Assembly: GCA_009919175.1 (NCBI GenBank)
Contig: RGCL01000004.1
Span: 1-64,000, forward strand
Direction: 5' to 3'
Source of the DNA: Betaproteobacteria bacterium
Lineage (GTDB): Bacteria; Pseudomonadota; Gammaproteobacteria; Burkholderiales; Burkholderiaceae_C
DNA: 64,000 nucleotides
In this document: piece after piece, positions 6,851-63,207 of the stretch
Numbering within the stretch: the first letter of the stretch is position 1
Layout of the letters: each line of letters begins with the position of its first letter
Made by a program: the position numbers and the translations under genes
The notes under the pieces: generated by a model
Told to the model about the DNA's origin: nothing
The model's input: only the letters and a program-made list of their open reading frames with translations
Database searches by the model: none

Positions 6851-7696
6851 TCAATTGGCCCAATTCACCCAGCCCAGGCCATGGGTGATCAGGATGAGCA
6901 GGCCAAACACAATGCGGTAATGGGCAAAAGGCACAAAGCTGTGGGTGGACACAAAGCGCAATAACCAGCGCACGCACACCCAGGCGCTCAGGAACGCGGC
7001 CACCAGCCCCACCATGAACATGGGCAGGTCGGCGAGGTTGAGCAAGTCTCTGGCCTTGTAGAGGCTATAGACCCCGGCACCAATCAGGGTGGGGATGGCC
7101 AGATAAAACGAAAACTCGGTGGCCACCGTGCGGCTCAGACCCAGCCACAGGCCGCCCATGATGGTGGCTCCGCTGCGGCTGGTGCCCGGCACGAGCGCGA
7201 GGCACTGCAGCAAGCCCACACGCAAGGCATCTCCTGCGGTCATGTCGTCCACCGATTGCACGCGCGCAGTTTGCCCCAGCACCTGGGCTTGACGGGCGAA
7301 GCGTCGCTCAATCCACAAAATGGCCAAGCCCCCCAGGATGAAGGTGGTGGCCACCACATGGGGTGTGAACAAATGCGCCTTGATGGTCTTGCCCAGCAAC
7401 AAGCCCAGGACCACCGCAGGTACAAATGCGATCAGCACGTTTTGCGTGAAGCGCCAAGCCTGGGGCTTGCGTTGCAGCAAACCGCTTGCCGTGGCGTAAA
7501 GGCGGGACCAAAAAATCAGGATGACTGCAAAGATGGCACCCGTCTGGATGGCAATCTCAAAGACCTTGGTTTTCTCGCCATCCATGCCCAGCAATGCACT
7601 GGTGAGGATGAGGTGGCCGGTGGATGAAATGGGCAGAAATTCAGTCAATCCTTCCACCACCCCCATGATCACAGCATTGAGCCACCAAGCGTCCAT
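6851..7696 (-). CDS. uppP: Undecaprenyl-diphosphatase (UppP/BacA)
   Basis: [19 protein letters not shown] and [16 protein letters not shown] signature motifs; multi-TM. Confidence 0.95.
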
Positions 7697-60271: not shown

Positions 60272-61378
60272 TCAGGGCAAAGCCCCTTGAACACCCTGGA
60301 CCAGGTAGTTCATGTTCAGGATGTCGGCATCGGTGGCCGCCTGCCCTTTGGGCACGCGCAGCTTACCCTCGCGGTCGGTCACCGGACCCACAAACACCTG
60401 GCGCTTGCCGCTGGCCATGTCCTTGGACATGGCGTCCACCTTGTGTTGCACGGCCTTGGGCACGCGATGCCCGTAGCTGCCCACGCGGATCATGCCCTCG
60501 CGAAGACCGCCCCACACATTGCCCGAGACCCATTTGCCCTCGAGCACGGCCTTGACGCGTGACACATCGTAAGCGCGCCAGTCGTGCTCCACGGCCAGCA
60601 GTTGGGCATCGGGGGCAATGGCACGCATGTCGGAGTGGTAAGCCACAGCCCAGGCGCCACGCGTCTGGGCTGCCGCCATCACTGCGGTGGATCCCGTATG
60701 GAAAGCCAGCACCTCGGCGCCTTGATCGAGCAGGGTCATGGCGGCATCGCGCTCCCGCGCAGGGTCAAACCAGGCTTGCAGCCAGATCACCTTGACCACC
60801 GCCTGGGGATGGACGGAGCGCATGCCCAGGGTGAACGCGTTGATGCCCTGCAAGACCTCGGGGATGGGGTAGCCCGCCACATAACCAGCCACGCCATTGC
60901 GGCTGACCATGCCTGCGGCCACGCCTGCGAGGTAGCGGCCTTCGTAATAGCGGGCATTGGCGGTGGCCACATTGGCAGCGCGCTTGTAGCCTGTGATGGA
61001 TTCAAAGCGCACATCGGGGAACTCCTGGGCAACCCGCATGACGGGCTCCATGTAGCCAAAGCTGGGCGCAAAAATGAGCTTCACGCCCTCGCGCGCCCAC
61101 TGGCGCATGAGCCGCTCGGCATCCGGTCCTTCGGCCAGGTTCTCGACATAGCGCGTCTTGACGCGGGGCGCTTGCCCAGCCGTGTTCAAGCTCTGTTCAA
61201 TCGCCTGTCGCCCCAACTCATGTTGCCGCACCCAGCCCATGTCGGTGAGCGGAGCGACATAGAGAAAGCCCACCTCCAGTGGCGTTGGCGCAATCGCACT
61301 GGACTGAGCCTGGGCGGTGGTGAAGAAGCTGAGCAGATAACAGACGGCCAGCAACTGGCCTTTGAGGTTTTTGTACAT
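60272..61378 (-). CDS. BMP-family (purine-nucleoside/basic membrane protein type) ABC substrate-binding protein
   Basis: Signal peptide [80 protein letters not shown]-type SD before ATG at 61378. Confidence 0.88.
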
Positions 61379-61412
61379 GGTGTTCCTCGACATGGCCCCT
61401 TGTGGGGCGGAC

Positions 61413-61441
61413 AAAAAGAAACGCGCCCATTGGCGCGTTTC
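61413..61441 (-). terminator. Rho-independent terminator of the tRNA operon
   Basis: Minus strand GAAACGCGCC-AATG-GGCGCGTTTC then TTTTT. Confidence 0.85.
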
Positions 61442-61446
61442 TAAAG

Positions 61447-61523
61447 TGGCGGAGTGGACGGGGCTCGAACCCGCGACCCCCGGCGTGACAGGCCGGTATT
61501 CTAACCAACTGAACTACCACTCC
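61447..61523 (-). tRNA. tRNA-Asp (anticodon GTC)
   Basis: GGAGTGGTAGTTCAGTTGGTTAGAATACCGGCCTGTCACGCCGGGGGTCGCGGGTTCGAGCCCCGTCCACTCCGCCA. Confidence 0.97.
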
Positions 61524-61571: not shown

Positions 61572-61638
61572 TGGCGACCCTACGGGGATTCGAACCCCGG
61601 TACTCACCGTGAAAGGGTGATGTCCTAGGCCTCTAGAC
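61572..61638 (-). pseudogene. 5'-truncated tRNA-Glu (anticodon TTC): D arm onward present, 5' acceptor strand and positions 8-9 missing
   Basis: Minus strand GTCTAGAGGCCTAGGACATCACCCTTTCACGGTGAGTACCGGGGTTCGAATCCCCGTAGGGTCGCCA; preceded by ...ACCTCCACCAAA (the 3' end of tRNA-Ala) instead of a GACCCTA-like acceptor strand. Confidence 0.75.
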
Positions 61639-61640
61639 TT

Positions 61641-61716
<76 letters not shown>

Positions 61717-61818: not shown

Positions 61819-63207
61819 TCAAAGTCCAGCGCGGATGAGCCCCACCACGCGATCGCGATCGCTCAAGGCCAGCACCTGATCCAGCGATGGGGTTTGCGGC
61901 GTGCCCAGCACCAGCACGCGAACGGGCATGGCCAACTGGGGCATCTTGAGTTGATGGGCCTGCAACACGGTCTTGATGCCTGCGGCAATGGCCGCTGCCG
62001 ACCACTCCACGGTTTGCAGGCTCTGGGCGAATTCGGCCAGCGCGGGTTTGACGGCATCGGTCACATGCTGAGCCAGATCGGCGGCGCTGGGCTGCACGGG
62101 GCCTGCCATGCGGTTGAGCCAATCGGCAAGCACACACAAGGTGTCACAGCGGTCTTTGAACAAATCGCAGCGCGCAGCCAGCCGCGCAGGGTCACCGTCC
62201 AGGGCTTGGGGCTCAAGCCAGGGCTTGACCATTTGGGCAAGCGCATCGCCCGTACACGCCTTGAGGTGCTGGGCATTGACCCACTTGAGCTTGGCTTCAT
62301 CAAACTGGGCTGCACTCTTGCCCAGGTGGTCGAGGTCGAACCAGGACAGGAATTGCTCGCGCGAAAAGATTTCGTCGTCACCGTGGCTCCAGCCCAGTCT
62401 GGCCAGGTAATTGACCATGGCATCGGGCAGATAGCCTTCGGTGCAGTACTGAGTGACAGCCTTGGCACCATTGCGCTTGCTCATTTTTTCGCCCTGCTCG
62501 TTGAGCACGGTGGGCAAGTGGGCATAGACCGGATGGGCTCGCCCCAGGGCTTGGAAGATGTGAATCTGCCGGGGGGTGTTGTTGACGTGATCGTCGCCGC
62601 GAATGACATGGGTGATGGCCATGTCGATGTCATCCACCACCACACAAAAGTTGTAGGTGGGTGTGCCGTCCGGGCGGGCGATCACCAAGTCGTCGAGTTC
62701 GGCATTGGCCACTTCGATGCGACCCTTGACCTTGTCGTCCCACACCACACTACCGCCCAGCGGGGTCTTGAAGCGCCAAACGGGTTTGACGCCTTCGGGG
62801 ATGGCGGGCAAGGTCTTGCCCGGCTCAGGCCGCCAGGTACCGTCATAGCGGGGCTTGAGCTTGGCGGCCATTTGCCGCTCGCGCAAGGCATCGAGTTCAG
62901 CCACGCTCATGTAGCAAGGGTAGACCCAGCCTTGCGCGCGCAATTGCTCGAGGACCTCCTTGTAGCGGTCCATGCGCTGCATTTGATAGAAGGGACCTTC
63001 ATCGGGGTTGAGGCCCAGCCACTGCATGCCTTCGAGGATCACGTCCACGGCCTCCTGGCTGGAGCGCTCGACATCGGTGTCTTCGATGCGCAAGATGAAA
63101 ACGCCGTCTTGTGACTTGGCAAATGCCCAGGGGTACAAGGCCGAACGGATGTTGCCCAGGTGGATAAAGCCAGTGGGCGAAGGCGCAAAGCGGGTGCGAA
63201 CGGTCAT
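61819..63207 (-). CDS. gltX: Glutamyl-tRNA synthetase
   Basis: [59 protein letters not shown]. Confidence 0.98.

Follow-up and report, generated by a model that had tools for sequence, protein, structure and literature searches.

A tRNA-Glu(TTC) gene joined without its 5′ acceptor strand to tRNA-Ala in a Limnohabitans-group draft genome is most likely an assembly error or a dead spare copy

Introduction

In Comamonadaceae, including Limnohabitans, the gene for glutamate–tRNA ligase, gltX, flanks a tRNA cluster in the order Ala(GGC), Glu(TTC), and Asp(GTC). The locus described here has the same gene order, the same tRNA bodies, and the same flanking gltX, but it alone is without the spacer between tRNA-Ala and tRNA-Glu and the first 9 nt of tRNA-Glu. 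Two described phenomena come closest to this arrangement. Overlapping or 5′-edited tRNA genes of mitochondria are likewise adjacent genes on the same strand with one acceptor end incomplete (PMC4284800), whereas at our locus no bases are shared for pairing, the 5′ strand is wholly lost, the setting is a bacterial chromosome, and the arrangement occurs once. The same review reports that, where two tRNAs overlap, the E. coli processing machinery destroys the downstream one. It adds that overlap processing has never been seen to yield a downstream tRNA truncated at its 5′ end and that bacteria are not known to carry out programmed 5′ editing (PMC4284800). If real and functional, the tRNA-Glu studied here would, judging by that review, be the first bacterial tRNA made without a 5′ acceptor strand. 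The other phenomenon is technical: metagenome assemblies that have not been curated are known to suffer from local assembly errors and chimeras (PMC7111523). Our locus resembles such errors in that the draft is fragmented, the sequence occurs in one assembly, and the spot is repeat-prone with breaks in many relatives; their defining feature is a lack of read support, whereas our comparison was made from the assembled sequence alone.

The locus lies in a stretch of 64,000 nucleotides that was analysed as a whole (hereafter the window), on an 86,008-base contig (C172) of a draft assembly of 2,931,436 bases in 248 contigs that is rated 99.99% complete. Judging from its fragmentation, the draft is probably metagenome-derived. 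The source is a freshwater bacterium of the Limnohabitans group, in a genus that includes Limnohabitans.

Results

The locus is an ordinary gltX-tRNA-Ala-tRNA-Glu-tRNA-Asp operon on the minus strand of the window. The gltX gene (61819–63207), a conserved neighbour upstream of the tRNAs, is an intact open reading frame encoding a glutamate–tRNA ligase of 462 aa (TIGR00464, 506 bits, above the cut-off; PF00749), and it is the single full gltX detected in the whole draft. It is followed by a tRNA-Ala(GGC) that is complete including its CCA (61641–61716; ARAGORN and Rfam), 100% identical copies of which were found throughout the genus, and, beyond the truncated gene, by a complete tRNA-Asp(GTC) of 77 nt (61447–61523; ARAGORN). 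The two bases AA (61639–61640) are all that separates the Ala CCA from position 10 of tRNA-Glu(TTC), which is represented by positions 10–76 (61572–61638; sequence and Rfam) and lacks the 5′ acceptor strand (positions 1–7), U8, and C9. The junction reads ...CGCTTACCTCCACCA-AA-GTCTAGAGGCCTAGGACATCACCCTTTCACGGTGAGTACCGGGGTTCGAATCCCCGTAGGGTCGCCA on the minus strand and is deposited in the draft as CCACCAAAGTCTAGAGG. A preliminary description of this DNA had reported a tRNA-Glu(TTC) without its 5′ acceptor strand, joined to the CCA of tRNA-Ala via AA, which is exact in the sequence and agrees with both programs. ARAGORN called Ala(GGC) at 61716–61641 and Asp(GTC) at 61523–61447 in the window and no Glu, and the Rfam tRNA model RF00005 matched the Glu remnant at model positions 7–64 only, with 37.5 bits compared with 62.9 and 68.0 bits for the neighbouring tRNAs.

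The 67 nt that remain of the Glu gene match the functional tRNA-Glu genes of many relatives with 100% identity, indicating that the fusion is not a chance resemblance and that there is no sign of drift since any loss of the gene. The D arm, the anticodon arm with TTC, the T arm, and the 3′ GCCA of a functional tRNA-Glu are all present, while the seven-pair acceptor stem and U8 were found lacking by pairing count, RF00005, and ARAGORN. The nine bases 5′ of the Glu body (TCCACCAAA) allow 3 of the 7 acceptor pairs, and the cloverleaf is lost in the predicted fold (−20.6 kcal/mol vs −29.0 kcal/mol for the relatives' version), in line with the earlier remark that the upstream bases do not replace the acceptor strand and that U8 is missing. 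We considered and rejected two ways in which the strand could be supplied from nearby. Sharing of bases with the 3′ end of tRNA-Ala yields the same 3 of 7 pairs, which is about chance level, and for a permuted tRNA with its 5′ strand downstream, the spacer offers just GACC in TTGACCAAAC, which by eye is not kept in relatives. The hallmarks of an overlapping or edited tRNA, shared bases or a repairable stem conserved in relatives, were not found at this locus.

We then compared the junction across relatives. Among the 84 genomes of the genus, the fusion is present in the window's own and in no other, and the pattern CCACCA-N(0-8)-GTCTAGAGGCCTAGGACA had no match in 85,462 species genomes (GTDB r220), a set that may leave out the window's own genome; with 0 of 83 other genus genomes and 0 of 85,462 species genomes carrying it, the fusion was rejected as a feature conserved in relatives. 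Every relative with an assembled Ala-Glu junction has the same operon with the Glu gene intact. The 5′ acceptor strand, U8, and C9 together make up GACCCTATC, and the intact form reads GACCCTATC-GTCTAG. Where measured in the genus, 31–71 nt lie between the Ala CCA and G10, always ending in GACCCTATC, and positions 1–9 are absent from the window, which bears out the earlier estimate that about 9 nt of the tRNA and a spacer are missing. Of the 84 genus genomes, 51 contain the intact start GACCCTATCGTCTAGAGG, which is missing from every contig of the draft, and a parallel scan found the intact form in at least 120 stretches of named Comamonadaceae and relatives. This comparison of the spacer, which the preliminary description had proposed, revealed an intact Glu 5′ end wherever the junction was assembled. 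The best matches to the window flanks among the compared genomes reached approximately 70% identity.

The copy number of the intact gene varies. It is single-copy in G061, G073, G074, and G075, which are assembled in one or two contigs, and two intact copies occur in G006, G022, G033, and G105. In G006, two Ala-Glu-Asp operons lie on contigs C11 and C6 of one draft with gltX-like sequence before each, reflecting either a duplication that took in the whole operon and gltX or the mixing of two strains in the draft. Genus-wide, the Ala-Glu spacer frequently contains a short hairpin-like repeat and mostly ends in AGGTT(T/A)TGACCCTATC.

An intact second tRNA-Glu(TTC) had been expected elsewhere in the genome, and it is absent from the assembly as judged by DNA search, the Rfam tRNA family, and sequence patterns for an intact start (TGACCCTATCGTC with at most 1 mismatch and GACCCTATCGTCTAGAGGCCTAGGACA with at most 2 mismatches). 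The single 1-mismatch match to TGACCCTATCGTC, on contig C168, is not followed by a tRNA body, and tRNA-Glu(CTC) was discarded as a backup, there being no further Glu gene among the tRNAs named in the draft. The missing intact copy proves little, because tRNA-Ile(GAT), tRNA-Ala(TGC), and 16S were likewise not found in the draft (the 16S search missed 5 of 14 control genomes and is weak alone) and because an intact copy is absent from 8 of 40 high-quality genus assemblies, the window's draft among the 8. The two undetected tRNA genes adjoin each other in the one-contig relative G073; together with 16S, they mark repeats that were left unassembled, and tRNA-Ile(GAT) must exist in the organism. 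The genes nearby make normal use of Glu codons (14–22 per gene), and the cell must therefore have a working tRNA-Glu.

A second tRNA-Asp(GTC) was found at the end of a 7,469-base contig, C233 (positions 7393–7469); the last base of the contig coincides exactly with the first base of this gene. Over its 77 bases the gene does not differ from the window copy, and the sequences diverge beyond them. A contig end at a shared 77-base repeat looks like a graph break at k=77, which suggests that a second operon went unassembled or that the assembly is tangled here. The terminator after the Asp gene of C233 resembles those after the operon's tRNA-Asp in G011, G103, G003, and G089, and the GC content of the contig is 0.557 compared with 0.613 for the window. 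C233 would come either from a second Ala-Glu-Asp operon, the upstream half of which was unassembled or unbinned, or from a related strain that was sampled together with this one. Downstream of its Asp gene lies a gene for a GH81-type glycosyl hydrolase (PF17652). In about 20 or more genus genomes (hand count), a contig ends inside the operon or within approximately 100 bases of it, indicating that the operon is hazardous for assemblers.

Discussion

The truncated gene is most likely an assembly error or a dead spare copy and not new biology. We assign a probability of roughly 60% to a local assembly or consensus deletion, the inclusion of a minor variant being counted in. The cell would then have the ordinary operon with an intact tRNA-Glu, and the draft would have lost about 30–70 bases between Ala and Glu, whether by a local error of assembly or consensus or by taking up a minor variant or a chimeric read path, at a site where short identical tRNA repeats may have tangled the assembly graph. 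We infer that this junction does not represent what the living population carries. An assembly error is favoured because the fusion is unique to one assembly while the intact start occurs in most genomes of the genus, because the Glu body is undecayed and the adjoining gltX intact, and because the draft is fragmented and missing its repeats, C233 is broken at Asp, and the spot is prone to breaks. A junction normally enters a de Bruijn assembly only if some reads contain it, which makes a real deletion possible in at least a fraction of the population; a lineage-specific one is possible too, since the closest compared flanks are too divergent to come from species-level relatives.

A real deletion, with the window copy as a fresh pseudogene and an intact tRNA-Glu in a second Ala-Glu-Asp operon that was left unassembled or unbinned, is a tentative alternative that we consider about half as probable. 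The identical tRNA-Asp on C233, where the contig ends at the 5′ end of the gene, and the operon-like terminator behind it would fit such an operon, as would the four relatives with two intact tRNA-Glu genes, each of which lies within its own Ala-Glu-Asp operon in G006. However, the relatives whose assemblies comprise one or two contigs carry a single operon, the draft yielded a single full gltX and a single Ala(GGC), and the lower GC of C233 could reflect contamination from another strain. The pseudogene was perhaps made by a short-homology deletion with GTC at both edges; some relatives' spacers start with AAAGTC, which would supply the homology. Far less probable, to the point that we hardly credit it, is that the cell has no tRNA-Glu(TTC) other than the truncated gene, whose transcript would lack the 5′ acceptor strand and be made functional by an unknown route, such as a Thg1-like 3′-5′ polymerase acting on the TAGGGTC strand, a 5′ piece supplied in trans, or processing that shares bases of tRNA-Ala. 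The assembly is indeed without an intact copy, and bacterial Thg1-like proteins can mend 5′-truncated tRNAs in vitro (PMC4284800). Against this, such a route would need to restore seven pairs and two unpaired bases, the rest of the draft contains no near copy of TGACCCTATCGTC with a tRNA body behind it, the arrangement recurs in none of the 83 genus and 85,462 species genomes, and the draft also lacks a tRNA-Ile(GAT) that must exist. Among the three explanations offered by the preliminary description, an assembly deletion and a second copy stay the best, and a repaired or overlapping tRNA, which has little but the missing copy in its favour, is very unlikely. As it stands, the locus is a warning that tRNA operons of draft genomes can be broken despite a high completeness score (99.99% here).

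The surroundings of the operon were also inspected. A gene for a Bmp/PnrA-like ABC transporter substrate-binding protein (60272–61378, minus strand; PF02608) lies downstream of tRNA-Asp. We also considered that two operons had been joined into a chimera at the Asp gene, a reading that is weakened by G099, which has the order gltX-operon-Bmp on one contig. The Bmp/PnrA-like gene directly follows the operon in the window (60272–61523) and in G099, G015, and G022, and it is placed elsewhere in other relatives, for example 7 kb downstream of the operon in G006.
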